Origin: an uncultured Winogradskyella sp.
GTDB lineage: Bacteria > Bacteroidota > Bacteroidia > Flavobacteriales > Flavobacteriaceae
Assembly (NCBI RefSeq): GCF_947498345.1
Contig: NZ_CANMJY010000001.1
Coordinates: 62,001-126,000, forward strand
DNA: 64,000 bases
Reading direction: 5' to 3'
Shown: piece after piece, positions 59,341 to 63,183 of the stretch
Position numbering within the stretch: position 1 is the first letter of the stretch
Layout of the letters: each line of letters begins with the position of its first letter
Translations under genes and position numbers: made by a program
Notes under the pieces: model-generated
Seen by the model: only the letters and a program-made list of their open reading frames with translations
Told to the model about the DNA's origin: nothing
Databases searched by the model: none

Positions 59341-60707
59341 ATTTTAATTCGTTTTTTTAGAGCAACTTCCCAAATAAAAGCAGAAAATACAATAAGGTAT
59401 TCTAATCCGATAATCCATAAATTCTCTGATTTATCAGAAGTGCCTATGGCTAAATAGGATAGATAACTTAAAATCATTACTAAGCTCCAAATCAATGGGA
59501 ATCTATAGTTAGTAAATATGCAAAGTACAACTAAAGTTGCAATATACCAAGGATGAACGGTTGTGCTTAAAAAGAGATATAGGCTAAATACTAATAGTAA
59601 AGATGTTGTCAATTTAGGAATTGAATCACTACGTTTTAAAAAGGAAAATCCTAAAATAATCAGCACTGAAGTAATTGGTAAGATTTTGGTTATAATGGCT
59701 ATCTCATTATAACCAGTAATGGAGTAACCAATCGCTCGAGCAATATAATATACACTAGCATTAAATTCAAAATTACCAAACCAGAGCCCAACAGTTTTAG
59801 AATAATTATTGATAAATTCCATTGAAAAGAATGGCAAGAAAAATAGTAATATGGTTACCCCAATAATAAGATAAAAGTATGTTAGTTTTTTTAAGCCATT
59901 AATAAGGTTATTGTTCTTAACAAACCACCAAAAAAACAAAGGTAAAAACATTAATGGAATTAGTTTTACTGAGATAGAGCAAGCCCAAAGAATTGCAGCC
60001 CATTTCCATTTGCCAGAGTGTAATAAATACAAACTCCACACTAAGAAGAAAATCATCACTCCTTCAAAATGAAGATTTCCTGTTAATTCAATAATGATAA
60101 ATGGATTTAAGACATACCAGAAGATCCTAGTTGATGGTAATTTTAAGCGTTCTAAAAGCTTCTTTCCAAAATATAATGTGCCAATATCTGCAAATATGAT
60201 TAAGATGCGCATTACTATTACAGAACCCAAAATACTATTACCAGTAAATAAACTAGCTATAAAAAAGCATAGCTGATTTATTGGAGGATAATTTGTAAAA
60301 TGCATAGAGCTGAGTTCACCCATGCCATTATATAAGTCTTGTGCTTGTGCCACTGGGAATTTATTGTTCTGAATAAATGAATCAGGAGTGTGGAGATAAG
60401 GGTTAAATCCTTCAAATATCATACGACCATCCCAAATAAAGCGATAAAAATCTTGGGACAAATTCGGAATAGCAAATAAAAATAAAAGCCTAAAGAGAAT
60501 AGCGGAAATCACTAAAAGTCTAAAATAGAAACCAGTAGTCTTAATAATTTGAAACGCTAGTACAAATAGTGCTGTATAAAGCAACATGAGTTTCGTTATA
60601 TCTGTTCTTGCCAAATTATAAGCAAAAGTGAGGTATAAGATGGAACTTATTAAAACAAAGAGAAGTGTAGTTTTTTTGTACTTAAATAGGTTGACTAGTC
60701 CAAGCAT
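59337..60707 (-). CDS. Polytopic mannosyltransferase-like membrane protein (GT87/DUF2029-like)
   Basis: A 456-residue membrane protein with about 11-12 hydrophobic segments. The first periplasmic loop holds LSQDFYRFIWDGRMIFEGFNPY, with the Asp expected of lipid-phosphate-sugar-dependent GT-C enzymes. It probably transfers a sugar from a polyprenyl-phosphate donor to an envelope glycan. No neighbours point to the product. Confidence 0.78.
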   Translation of the reverse strand: MLGLVNLFKYKKTTLLFVLISSILYLTFAYNLARTDITKLMLLYTALFVLAFQIIKTTGFYFRLLVISAILFRLLFLFAIPNLSQDFYRFIWDGRMIFEGFNPYLHTPDSFIQNNKFPVAQAQDLYNGMGELSSMHFTNYPPINQLCFFIASLFTGNSILGSVIVMRILIIFADIGTLYFGKKLLERLKLPSTRIFWYVLNPFIIIELTGNLHFEGVMIFFLVWSLYLLHSGKWKWAAILWACSISVKLIPLMFLPLFFWWFVKNNNLINGLKKLTYFYLIIGVTILLFFLPFFSMEFINNYSKTVGLWFGNFEFNASVYYIARAIGYSITGYNEIAIITKILPITSVLIILGFSFLKRSDSIPKLTTSLLLVFSLYLFLSTTVHPWYIATLVVLCIFTNYRFPLIWSLVMILSYLSYLAIGTSDKSENLWIIGLEYLIVFSAFIWEVALKKRIKI

Positions 60708-60760
60708 AAGATCAAAGATAGAATCTTTATATTAAAAAAATATGTTAAATAATATAATTA

Positions 60761-60776
60761 GTTAGGAATCCTTACT
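60761..60776 (+). promoter_or_regulatory. Site 1 of the GTTAGNAATCCTWAYT motif, upstream of the thioredoxin-like gene
   Basis: GTTAGGAATCCTTACT directly precedes and touches the -7 element TATATTTG at 60776-60783. It is one of three near-identical sites in this cluster and is placed to block RNA polymerase. I propose it as an operator of the MarR regulator encoded at 62151. Confidence 0.65.
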
Positions 60777-60783
60777 ATATTTG
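60776..60783 (+). promoter_or_regulatory. -7 promoter element of the thioredoxin-like gene
   Basis: TATATTTG fits the TANNTTTG consensus and lies 34 bases before the start codon. The -33 position has no clear TTG, which suits a regulated promoter. Confidence 0.5.
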
Positions 60784-60817
60784 TATCGCAATAGTGCAAT
60801 AATCAAAAAAATTAAAC

Positions 60818-61051
60818 ATGAGTAAATCAATTTTTTATCACGCAGGGTGTCCTGTATGTGTTACTGCAGAACAAGACATCGTCGATTTAGCAGGTAGGGG
60901 CAATGTAGAAATAGTTCATTTAGGAAATGATGGTTCTAGAATTACTGAGGCTGAAAATGCAGGTGTAAAATCCGTACCAGCCTTATTAACCAGCAATGGA
61001 AATGTATTGCATATTAATTTTGGGGCTTCTTTAGAAGAAGTTAAAGGGTAA
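60818..61051 (+). CDS. Small thioredoxin/glutaredoxin-like protein (CPVC)
   Basis: A 77-residue protein with a thioredoxin-fold outline: an N-terminal strand, the redox motif Cys11-Pro-Val-Cys14, and the cis-Pro loop SVPALL. It lacks a signal peptide, so is cytosolic. It is the first gene of a MarR-associated cluster and has its own motif-bearing promoter. A redox or metal-thiol role is likely. Confidence 0.8.
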   Translation: MSKSIFYHAGCPVCVTAEQDIVDLAGRGNVEIVHLGNDGSRITEAENAGVKSVPALLTSNGNVLHINFGASLEEVKG

Positions 61052-61068
61052 ATTTTTTAATTTAAATA

Positions 61069-61084
61069 GTTAGTAATCCTAATT
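61069..61084 (+). promoter_or_regulatory. Site 2 of the GTTAGNAATCCTWAYT motif, upstream of the lipoprotein gene
   Basis: GTTAGTAATCCTAATT ends 10 bases before the ATG of the next gene. It is 13-14 of 16 identical to sites 1 and 3. No clear TANNTTTG lies nearby, so it may govern an internal promoter or translation start. Confidence 0.65.
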
Positions 61085-61094
61085 AATAGAAAAA

Positions 61095-61826
61095 ATGAAA
61101 ACAAATTTAAGCTTATTAGCATTAGTCTTTCTTACAATCACTTCGGTTTCTTGTGCACAAGAGAAAGAAAGTCCGTATAATACGAAAGACCTGGAGATTA
61201 CGTCTGTTCATGTTACTCATAACTCAGATCTGGATGTTACTATTTGGACAATTGATGTAAAAGGAACGGCAGGTAATACAAAACCTATCCCAGTAGGGCA
61301 ATTAGATGGTGCACCGGTATTGGGTTATGTTTTTCTAACATCATTAAAACCACAAGATGTTGGTTTTAGCCAAACAGAAGGTATTGTAGCACTTGCTTTA
61401 ACTTCACATCCTGATTTTGATGATACACCATTATGGGATGAGAACAATGATACTATTTTTAACAATGATGGCATTATATGGCATCCACATTGGGTTGTAC
61501 TTCATGAAGATAACCGTGTAGAAGGTGGATTTTCTGTTAAGCAATTTGATAAAGAAAATAAAGATGTAAAGTTGCCGCCTACTAACCCAGGAATGCCAAT
61601 GTATATGGATTCGCCAGGTTATCCGGTGAAAACAAAAGAGAATACAATAAAAGTTATTGTTCCTGATTATAGAATAAATAACAATATAAGTTTTAACTAC
61701 GATGGGGTTGCGGCTTTTATGATGGTAAATATTAGTAAAGAAGATACACCTATGCTGGGTGTATATGAAGTGTTTAGTGTAGCGAGCGGTGACTTATCTC
61801 TTCCTTATTCAGTAAAACAAGATTAA
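61095..61826 (+). CDS. Exported lipoprotein of unknown function with WHPHW motif
   Basis: A 243-residue lipoprotein (SVSCAQ, Cys20). The mature part is beta-rich. It has a histidine cluster, IIWHPHWVVLHED, and a PMYMDSPGYPV turn. I do not recognise the family. The His cluster could bind a metal. The stop codon overlaps the next start (TAATG), and the regulatory motif lies just upstream, so it belongs to the MarR cluster. Confidence 0.72.
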   Translation: MKTNLSLLALVFLTITSVSCAQEKESPYNTKDLEITSVHVTHNSDLDVTIWTIDVKGTAGNTKPIPVGQLDGAPVLGYVFLTSLKPQDVGFSQTEGIVALALTSHPDFDDTPLWDENNDTIFNNDGIIWHPHWVVLHEDNRVEGGFSVKQFDKENKDVKLPPTNPGMPMYMDSPGYPVKTKENTIKVIVPDYRINNNISFNYDGVAAFMMVNISKEDTPMLGVYEVFSVASGDLSLPYSVKQD

Positions 61827-62089
61827 TGAAAGTAGCTGTTTGGGATACTTACGTATCAAGAGAAGATGGTAAACTAATGCATTTTGACATAGTTGTGCCA
61901 GATTATATTAAAAATGAGAGCATCGTTTTTGGTTTTGGTGAGACTTATTTAAAAAATAAGCCTTTTAAAACAGGAAGCATTACATCTAAAGAATGTCAGT
62001 TTTGCCATATGGAAAAAGCACCTAATAATATCGTGAGTGAAATAAAAGTCAAAGGCTATTATATCATAGAGATGGAATATTGTAATTAA
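61826..62089 (+). CDS. DUF2024 family protein
   Basis: An 87-residue protein matching the DUF2024 pattern: MKVAVWDTYV at the start, MHFDIVVPDYI, then ECQFCHMEKAP with Cys57, Cys60 and His61, and a GYYIIEMEYC end (Cys86). The function is unknown; the Cys/His set suggests metal binding. Its first base is the last base of the previous stop, so translation is coupled to the lipoprotein gene. Confidence 0.82.
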   Translation: MKVAVWDTYVSREDGKLMHFDIVVPDYIKNESIVFGFGETYLKNKPFKTGSITSKECQFCHMEKAPNNIVSEIKVKGYYIIEMEYCN

Positions 62090-62112
62090 TTTAATTAGGA
62101 TTGCTAACTTTG
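62080..62112 (+). promoter_or_regulatory. Promoter of the MarR gene
   Basis: The -7 element TAACTTTG (62105-62112) matches TANNTTTG, with TTG at 62080-62082 upstream, spacing 22. It overlaps motif site 3 and starts just inside the DUF2024 stop. The likely start of transcription falls inside the downstream hairpin. Confidence 0.5.
62093..62108 (-). promoter_or_regulatory. Site 3 of the GTTAGNAATCCTWAYT motif, upstream of marR
   Basis: On the - strand this reads GTTAGCAATCCTAATT. It overlaps the -7 element of the MarR promoter, so binding would repress it. This is the autoregulatory site expected of a MarR protein. Confidence 0.65.
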
Positions 62113-62147
62113 CCTATCATCAAGCAAATTTTGATGATAGGCATTTT
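62111..62147 (+). terminator. 13-bp hairpin before the MarR gene (terminator or operator)
   Basis: TGCCTATCATCAA (62111-62123) and TTGATGATAGGCA (62131-62143) form a perfect stem with a 7-base loop, followed by only four T. It ends 7 bases before the marR ATG. It may end the upstream operon or be part of the MarR leader. Confidence 0.65.
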
Positions 62148-62150
62148 AAT

Positions 62151-62753
62151 ATGAGTGATTTTAATCCAAAATACCAAATTAATAATCTAAGTAGTAAAAT
62201 TGTTGCTGGCTTAGAACGTATTTCTGAGGCATACAAAGTGTTATTATGGGAAAAAGCTAAGCTACTAGGTTTGAGTCCTATTCAAATTCAGATTTTGATA
62301 TTTACAAGCTATCATGACATTACTCTTTGTAACGTAAGTCATTTAGCTAAAGAGTTTAATATTACTAAACCGACTGTAAGTGATGCTGTTCGTGTTTTAT
62401 TAAAAAAAGAATTAGTTGCCAAGGTATTTCCCAGCAATGATAGTAGAAGTTATGCTATACAGCTGACCAAATCAGGTCAGGATATAGTAAAAAATACTGA
62501 ACATTTTGCTCAACCTATAAAACAGCAGGTAGATATACTTGACGCAAGTCAAAAAGAAGACCTATTTAAATCTATTACTCAACTTATCTATAAACTTAAT
62601 CAAGTTGATGTGCTATCAGTTCAAAGAACTTGTTTAAACTGTAGATTCTACGAAAAGGATGGCAAAGATTCTTTTTGTAACTTATTAGAGACCAAGCTAA
62701 AGACCTCAGATATTAGAATAGATTGTGAAGAATTTCAATTAAAAAACACATAA
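62151..62753 (+). CDS. MarR-family regulator with C-terminal four-cysteine motif
   Basis: A 200-residue winged-helix protein. The HTH is at about 60-85 (SHLAKEFNITKPTVSDAVRVLLKK) and the wing follows with SNDSRSYAIQLTKSG. After the usual dimer helices, residues 155-200 carry Cys161, Cys164, Cys176 and Cys192 (C-x2-C-x11-C-x15-C), which is extra to the MarR core. This may bind zinc or an iron-sulfur cluster or sense redox state. The SRPBCC gene starts 1 base later. It likely controls the three motif sites here. Confidence 0.87.
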   Translation: MSDFNPKYQINNLSSKIVAGLERISEAYKVLLWEKAKLLGLSPIQIQILIFTSYHDITLCNVSHLAKEFNITKPTVSDAVRVLLKKELVAKVFPSNDSRSYAIQLTKSGQDIVKNTEHFAQPIKQQVDILDASQKEDLFKSITQLIYKLNQVDVLSVQRTCLNCRFYEKDGKDSFCNLLETKLKTSDIRIDCEEFQLKNT

Positions 62754-62754
62754 A

Positions 62755-63183
62755 ATGAGCCATTCCATTTACTTCAATTTTATAATTAAGAGTGATAGAG
62801 AAACTGTTTATAAAGCGGTTTCTCAGCCAGAGTACTTAGTCAATTGGTGGCCTTTAAAATGTTCTGGTATTCCAAAAAAAGGTGAGCTATATAACTTTAA
62901 TTTTACAGATACCTATGATTGGTATGCTGAAGTTAAAAGTTGCGAGCAAAATGACCACATTTCTTATAAAATGATAAAATCTGATGCTGACTGGAACCCA
63001 ACTACCTTAGGGTTTAAGCTAAAGAAAAAAGAAAAAGGTACTTGCCTTAATTTTTTTCATAAAGATTGGCCAGAACTCAATAATCATTTTAAACATTCAT
63101 CATTTTGCTGGGCAATGCTATTAAAAGGCTTAAAGGATTATTTAGAAAAGGGAATTATTGTTCCTTTTGAAGATAGGGAATAA
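62755..63183 (+). CDS. SRPBCC/AHSA1-like domain protein
   Basis: A 142-residue START-like protein: an N-terminal FNFIIKSDRETVYKAVSQPEYLVNWW, a central beta-sheet, and a C-terminal SSFCWAMLLKGLKDYLEKG helix. The fold makes a hydrophobic pocket; AHSA1-type proteins can bind small ligands or Hsp90-like partners. No active site is visible. It is 1 base after marR, so is co-transcribed. Confidence 0.82.
   Translation: MSHSIYFNFIIKSDRETVYKAVSQPEYLVNWWPLKCSGIPKKGELYNFNFTDTYDWYAEVKSCEQNDHISYKMIKSDADWNPTTLGFKLKKKEKGTCLNFFHKDWPELNNHFKHSSFCWAMLLKGLKDYLEKGIIVPFEDRE

Follow-up and report, generated by a model that had tools for sequence, protein, structure and literature searches.

Three predicted operators of a Cys4-tailed MarR regulator in a small-protein gene cluster of Winogradskyella

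Near one end of a 64,000-nucleotide stretch of DNA from an uncultured Winogradskyella sp. (the window, which is part of a 3.81-Mb genome), five co-oriented genes at 60818–63183 encode a thioredoxin-like protein, a lipoprotein-like exported protein, a DUF2024 protein, a MarR-family regulator and an AHSA1/SRPBCC protein. The nearest matches of the MarR, whose C-terminal tail carries four cysteines (Cys4), are in Flavobacteriaceae records. Copies of one short palindrome precede the thioredoxin-like gene, the lipoprotein/DUF2024 pair and marR. Judging by sequence comparison, we consider it highly probable that these three sites are operators of the adjacent MarR, which would most likely be an autoregulated local repressor.

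In the mechanism that we propose, a MarR dimer would bind the palindrome TTAGGANTCCTAA at three promoters: next to the −7 element at the thioredoxin-like gene, in front of the lipoprotein/DUF2024 pair and on top of the −7 element of marR itself. Bound MarR would repress all three units, its own gene included, until a chemical signal loosened it and the small proteins were induced together. The Cys4 tail would do the sensing, as a zinc site, an iron–sulfur site or a set of reactive thiols. Binding, the sensory role of the tail and a repressing instead of an activating effect are inferred.

Three palindromic sites in the window

The initial annotation had listed three 16-mers, and all are exact, at 60761–60776 and 61069–61084 on the forward strand and at 62093–62108 on the reverse strand. 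It had also seen no further copy in the window, which holds at zero mismatches to the degenerate pattern and extends to the whole 3.81-Mb genome. The loose dyad that it described does have palindromic symmetry, but the unit is corrected here to an odd 13-bp palindrome, TTAGGANTCCTAA, from which each window copy departs by one base (Table 1). Two of the sites had been said to overlap −7 elements; the third truly does so, whereas the first 13-mer only abuts its element, one base of which is shared with the 16-mer. Taken alone, the window is weak evidence, and it is placement and conservation, not in-window statistics, that raise these putative operators above chance.

Conservation at orthologous promoters

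The initial annotation had staked its proposal on conservation of the motif in orthologous loci, and most relatives do keep the motif at these three promoters. In a scan of one genome per species, TTAGN5CTAA lay at most 1.7 kb upstream of marR in 30 of 33 loci with MarR relatives, ahead of the same genes as in the window. The finer counts come from all 60 MarR-bearing genomes among 249 searched genomes of the same family, so that there was no picking of winners. Every MarR region was fetched (the window being used for its own genome), the 200 bp upstream of each gene were scored, and a site was counted where at least 11 or at least 12 of 13 positions matched either of two operator forms, GGA or GTT.

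With either form, a site at ≥11/13 precedes all 49 thioredoxin-like genes (45 at ≥12/13), 26 of 27 lipoprotein genes (the same number at ≥12/13) and 51 of 60 marR genes (37 at ≥12/13). DUF2024 genes have one in 7 of 30 cases at 11/13, with GGA alone or either form, and in 7 at 12/13; this gene mostly follows the lipoprotein gene, and a site of its own is then not needed. The background, taken from other genes of the same loci after removal of any with a shared promoter, is 11/194 at 11/13 and 4/194 at 12/13 (17/205 and 9/205 when promoter-sharing genes are kept), and 5.6% of block shuffles reach 11/13 and 0.4% reach 12/13. Given these rates, the 11/13 threshold alone is loose, and 12/13 is not.

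Exact palindromes are likewise concentrated near marR. They occur in 34 of 60 MarR-positive and 26 of 189 MarR-negative genomes (Fisher p 1.6e-10, with genomes treated as independent), and of the 42 copies in the positive genomes, 29, spread over 27 of the 60, are found at most 3 kb upstream of marR. The remaining 13 (0.22 per genome) are near the MarR-negative rate of 27 in 189 genomes. We read these 13 together with a one-mismatch site of the window's own genome, C7:193104, giving 14 unlinked sites: 12 fall inside open frames (that of C7:193104 being only 76 residues long), one, in locus L128, is part of a terminator-like repeat between genes, and one, in L134, lies 5′ of a thioredoxin–lipoprotein–DUF2024 cluster about 26 kb from marR, in which operator 1 is kept at the thioredoxin-like promoter. 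A wider regulon is thus not supported, and from the placement of its sites the predicted regulon looks local. Clustering of neighbours in the family loci gave no further partner beyond groups of relatives, the largest clusters holding 10 and 9 loci.

Recognition-helix residue 78 and the operator core

Seven of the 60 genomes carry TTAGTTNAACTAA or close forms in the same place at the same promoters, such as TTAGTTAAACTTACTATATTTG at a thioredoxin-like gene. The MarRs of these genomes have Glu78 in 7/7, with Asn63 in place of Ser, and the others have Asp78 in 51/51, the paralogues L139 and L140 being set apart.

Beyond the family, we fetched 18 plasmid loci of different genera or species (L226–L243) from 87 records matching the lipoprotein and 66 matching the thioredoxin-like protein. 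The MarR was read in 13 of them; the RAC02 MarR was not read, that of Lelliottia is an annotated fragment ending in the tail, and L242 (L. aquaemixtae), Cytobacillus and Thiothrix list none. Exact odd palindromes of the expected kind occur in 11 of the 18 loci and imperfect ones in Vibrio, Deinococcus and L. aquaemixtae, with a weak one in Hymenobacter; scans of Lelliottia, Cytobacillus and Thiothrix scored no palindrome, one imperfect copy being visible by eye in Lelliottia. The sites ATAGGANTCCTAT of Rhizobia, TTAGGAATCCTAT of Defluviimonas and TTAGGAGTCCGAA of Deinococcus all go with Asp78, and TAGCGANTCGCTA of Leisingera M527 and Phaeobacter, TATCGAATCGATA of Enterobacter and TGTCGACTCGATA of Vibrio all go with Gln78.

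A tree of 85 MarR rows was built with the helix columns left out and without L257, L261 and Lelliottia; 74 rows had an assignable operator and were counted, and 11 did not. Operator core and residue 78 agree in all 74 assigned loci (Asp with GGA in 61, Glu with GTT in 8, Gln with CGA in 5), which span Bacteroidota, Pseudomonadota and Deinococcota. Because the core shifts together with a residue of the recognition helix, the MarR is hard to dismiss as the binder. The earlier proposal of an autoregulated MarR cluster thus gains comparative support, as a prediction, from the conserved promoters, the retention of the site in L134 and the core that changes with the recognition helix.

Two further loci deserve mention. 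In the Enterobacter plasmid region between marR and the thioredoxin-like gene (L232:4880-5005), a perfect 29-bp palindrome surrounds TATCGAATCGATA; no Escherichia coli genome matched this region. L139 and L140 encode distant Cys4-tailed MarR paralogues (35–36% identity) that adjoin dehydrogenase-like and VOC-like genes, named from reading of the sequence, and no thioredoxin-like gene was found at either; the L139 paralogue combines Glu78 with a GTT-type site.

The MarR protein and its cysteine tail

The regulator scores above the Pfam cut-offs (MarR_2 at 40 bits against 27, MarR at 26.2 against 24.6), and its AlphaFold core is a normal MarR fold with a recognition helix. The description of it as a Cys4 MarR extends well beyond the window: the tail is retained in all 60 family MarRs and, outside the family, in all 25 that were read (13 from plasmid loci and 12 from other Bacteroidota loci). 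Its pattern is C-x2-C-x(8-17)-C-x15-C, with a last spacing that is always 15, and 12 of the 25 have no cysteine besides these four.

A cysteine in the DNA-binding half, Cys60, is frequent in the family (46/51 and 6/7 for the two groups above). It is missing from all ten proteobacterial MarRs and the Deinococcus MarR that were read and from 7 of the 12 other Bacteroidota loci, and is therefore not a general sensor; the Vibrio and Enterobacter MarRs have a cysteine at position 55 instead.

On the Lelliottia plasmid (L228), the annotated MarR is 111 residues long and the thioredoxin-like stretch before the lipoprotein gene reads, by eye, CPVY rather than CPVC; the module may be decaying there.

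Promoter anatomy

The element TATATTTG of the thioredoxin-like gene, identified by the Bacteroidota −7 consensus, abuts operator 1. Among thioredoxin-like genes a strict TAnnTTTG stands beside the site in 42 of 49 and TTT[G/A] in 48 of 49, against 2 of 215 other genes at that fixed place. The corresponding element of the marR promoter, TAACTTTG, overlaps operator 3, and 27 of the 51 site-bearing marR genes show a strict TAnnTTTG. No −7 element was seen beside operator 2 in the window. The lipoprotein/DUF2024 site is the most perfect palindrome and in relatives seldom has an adjoining −7 element; in many of them a second partial copy can be seen by eye after it. The site positions at the thioredoxin-like and marR promoters would fit occlusion of RNA polymerase. 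The marR sites have A at position 9 in 50 of 59 cases, a base that could go with a weaker site serving autoregulation.

A terminator-like hairpin, whose first arm starts within the −7 element, separates the marR promoter from the start codon of the gene. By a loose criterion it is present in 56 of 65 loci, with 43 different arm pairs. It may be a terminator of the upstream genes that spares the transcript of marR: as the assumed start lies inside the first arm, this transcript would escape, the full stem of −19.7 kcal/mol falling to −4.8 once much of the first arm is removed. A scan of 60600–62400 against Rfam gave three matches, all far below gathering scores. For the site alignment, the protein alignment and the hairpin survey, L042, L096 and L097 were excluded as duplicates; identical and short proteins were dropped from the protein alignment. 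Three pairs of loci with identical MarRs from two collections (L010/L065, L011/L068 and L016/L081) were retained, so that the counts of 59 and 65 contain three repeats.

Neighbours in other lineages and the inducing signal

The class of signal is plausibly, though a shade short of probably, nitric oxide or related reactive nitrogen or oxygen species. We favour a nitrosative or oxidative signal over metals because of the haem and redox proteins that neighbour the MarR in other lineages; by analogy, the same signal might act in the window organism. The initial annotation had spoken of redox- or metal-type small proteins, which is still a guess, and these neighbours push it toward the redox or nitrosative side.

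Among 296 Bacteroidota genomes, protoglobin scores above cut-off in 14 (16 genes) and the MarR is found at E ≤ 1e-25 in 22; the two co-occur in 5 genomes and in all 5 lie at most 2 kb apart, with six protoglobin genes. In L252 the protoglobin promoter shares the TTAGGAATCCTTACTATATTTG layout with the thioredoxin-like promoter, and in L253 and L255 protoglobin is preceded by related sites. In L254, cytochrome P460 and the MarR stand in one gene row headed by TTAGGATTCCTAA; passages of one paper describe P460 as acting on hydroxylamine and nitric oxide (PMC11928373). Plasmid loci add Hmp, protoglobin, catalase and HTHP (L235), truncated haemoglobin and catalase (L237), NnrS (L238), and Rrf2 and cbb3 oxidase genes (L239), with redoxin, MOSC or peroxidase-related genes in several; in L230, L235 and L239 the MarR has an annotated Rrf2 gene no more than about 5 kb away. 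Many Thaumarchaeota oxidise ammonia. One paper lists DUF2024 as a metal-binding protein present in 29 of 30 Thaumarchaeota genomes (PMC6393860).

Several observations count against this assignment of the signal. The window cassette has none of these haem-protein neighbours, and no globin or nitric oxide gene was seen to recur next to the family cassettes. When truncated globins were searched for without bias, none of the genes listed stood beside the MarR, although the search missed L258 and L260. The AlphaFold model of the tail has low confidence, with a predicted local distance difference test (pLDDT) mostly below 60, too poor to judge metal geometry.

Truncated globin was rejected as a conserved neighbour on the strength of that search, and its presence near the MarR is only anecdotal (L258, below cut-off, and L260). 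In L258 (5868-6500) one frame fuses DUF2024 to a bacterial-globin-like domain (20.3 bits, cut-off 21). Lipoprotein relatives also occur in five Bacteroidota genomes of one other family (L246–L250), where tblastn at E ≤ 1e-6 found no match to the other reference genes within about 7 kb.

More tentatively, Cys4-tailed MarRs may form a separate cross-phylum class of nitric oxide and reactive-nitrogen sensors, in which a metal, iron–sulfur or thiol switch in the tail would control a shared detoxification set (thioredoxin-like protein, exported protein, DUF2024, globins and P460) and the operator would be chosen mainly through one helix residue (Asp, Glu or Gln).

With the same regulator and operator, the signal could instead be a general oxidant or electrophile (peroxide, hypochlorite or quinones) acting on cysteine thiols. 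Thioredoxin-like, redoxin, peroxidase-related and catalase neighbours speak for this, as does the frequency of Cys60 in the family; we nevertheless regard it as doubtful, since Cys60 is no general sensor, given its absence from the proteobacterial and Deinococcus MarRs, and nitrogen species are suggested by the P460, NnrS, Hmp and globin genes nearby.

A metal signal, with the tail as a zinc, nickel or copper sensor and the lipoprotein, DUF2024 and thioredoxin-like proteins handling the metal, appears rather unlikely. It would account for the invariant Cys4 tail, for the CxxCH and further cysteine of DUF2024 (termed a metal-binding protein in PMC6393860) and for the HPDFDD, WHPHW and MPMYM motifs of the lipoprotein, and the E-type cassettes L138 and L143 are followed by similar proteins, which in L138 were identified as SCO4226-like nickel-responsive proteins. 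No metal transporter was seen to recur across lineages, however, among neighbours that were not exhaustively annotated, and the wider neighbours are haem and redox proteins. Seven loci, of which five are titled Arenibacter, share a 215-residue membrane protein. The SCO4226-like proteins after the cassettes lie at L138:2792-4586 and L143:2803-4587 (assigned by Pfam in L138 only, and by similarity in L143), and one of those in L138 also bears an AraC-type helix-turn-helix.

Weighing the operator assignment

The reading of the three sites as MarR operators also has evidence against it. In the window, two mismatches allow 4 matches, a number equalled in 15 of 100 shuffles. In the window's own genome, one mismatch gives 6 matches against 5 for a reversed-pattern control and the exact palindrome has 1 copy against 1; the reversed control is also present in many of the 249 family genomes, so that across whole genomes the palindrome does not exceed chance controls. 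No site at ≥11/13 was scored for nine of the 60 marR genes. The genomes used to define the GTT form also served for counting it, and with the GGA form alone the counts at ≥11/13 fall to 42/49 thioredoxin-like, 21/27 lipoprotein and 43/60 marR genes. As regards the operator code, types were assigned manually for loci beyond the 60 family genomes; the tree requires only three operator changes, and an independent-pairs sign test gives p 0.25, with significance out of reach; one of the eight Glu/GTT rows is the distant paralogue L139, with a 12/13 site; and L253, one of the 11 unassigned rows, disagrees, having Glu78 with the mixed site TTAGTATTCCTAA.

That another transcription factor binds the palindrome, with the MarR a mere neighbour, would fit the 26 of 189 MarR-negative genomes that contain at least one exact copy. 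It is nonetheless very improbable: exact palindromes are in little excess away from marR, and such a factor would not explain why residue 78 matches three operator types across phyla. Scarcely credible is a mere promoter element or chance similarity, which has in its favour the weak in-window statistics and the abutment of operator 1 on a −7 element and is contradicted by the varying distances of the palindrome from promoters and start codons, by the recurrence of related sites across phyla and by the site counts at orthologous promoters against background genes.

Genes and features of the locus

The thioredoxin-like protein is homologous to PDB 2k8s over its whole chain (residues 2–77) and scores under the cut-off of the Pfam thioredoxin families. 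For the lipoprotein-like protein, no Pfam family scored above cut-off, a sequence search against PDB gave no match at E ≤ 1, and its structure model is poor (pLDDT 58), with no Foldseek match in PDB at E ≤ 0.001. Pfam membership of the DUF2024 protein is clear, at 106.2 bits against a cut-off of 27. The AHSA1/SRPBCC gene is probably a local passenger, since apart from the window genome only two near relatives (L007 and L008) have it directly after marR.

Table 1. Predicted sites, promoter elements and genes of the cluster, in window coordinates
Feature	Position	Strand	Details
Operator 1 (predicted), 5′ of thioredoxin-like gene	60762–60774	+	TTAGGAATCCTTA
Bacteroidota-type −7 element of thioredoxin-like gene, abutting operator 1	60776–60783	+	TATATTTG
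Thioredoxin-like protein, 77 residues	60818–61051	+	Active-site CPVC; PDB 2k8s, E 6.6e-25
Operator 2 (predicted), 12 nucleotides before lipoprotein start codon	61070–61082	+	TTAGTAATCCTAA
Lipoprotein-like exported protein, 243 residues	61095–61826	+	Conserved HPDFDD, WHPHW, MPMYM
DUF2024 protein (PF09630)	61826–62089	+	Conserved CxxCH and C-terminal Cys; E 8.3e-31; PDB 2hfq
Operator 3 (predicted), 5′ of marR	62095–62107	−	+ strand TTAGGATTGCTAA
−7 element of marR promoter, overlapping operator 3	62105–62112	+	TAACTTTG
Terminator-like hairpin between marR promoter and marR start codon	62111–62143	+	−19.7 kcal/mol, z −5.2
MarR-family regulator	62151–62753	+	C-terminal C-x2-C-x11-C-x15-C tail; MarR_2 E 4.4e-10
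AHSA1/SRPBCC protein, downstream of marR	62755–63183	+	

Significance and comparison with known systems

A probable regulator, its predicted operators and its likely targets are hereby supplied for proteins without a known role, namely the exported lipoprotein family and DUF2024, whose relatives adjoin Cys4 MarRs in Flavobacteria, Rhizobia, Roseobacters, Vibrio and Deinococcus. For the MarR family, the natural variants offer a ready test of DNA selection by one recognition-helix residue. A short list of candidate inducers can be drawn from the haem and redox neighbours, and an uncharacterised stress response becomes testable. A literature search, with most subscription journals beyond its reach, found no description of the Cys4 tail, the cross-phylum shared cargo or the operator code.

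Nitric oxide regulons are the domain of NsrR, an Rrf2 protein. The cargo here is of similar kinds and Rrf2 genes lie near the MarR in some loci, but the regulator belongs to a different protein family. CioR of Chromobacterium violaceum is described, in parts of one paper, as a MarR-superfamily autorepressor of a cytochrome bd operon linked to nitric oxide and metal stress; those parts present it as a GbsR-type protein with one named cysteine (C52) and a different cargo (PMC11837568), and we rejected it as a relative. The best NCBIfam match of the window MarR is the AdcR-type zinc-dependent MarR (NF038251, E 7.8e-8), an identity that we likewise rejected, as its 32.7 bits compare with an equivalog cut-off of 175 bits; the Cys4 tail lies outside the matched residues 29–148. 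AdcR zinc regulators target zinc-transport genes; the predicted local targets here are the thioredoxin-like, lipoprotein and DUF2024 genes.

Finally, MepR, OhrR and E. coli MarR are the classical autoregulated local repressors of the MarR family, and the window protein, a member by domain and fold, would act like such a textbook repressor. Unlike them, it has a Cys4 tail of about 40 residues, among its relatives in several phyla the operator core changes along with a single residue of the recognition helix, and its cargo consists of thioredoxin-like, lipoprotein and DUF2024 proteins.

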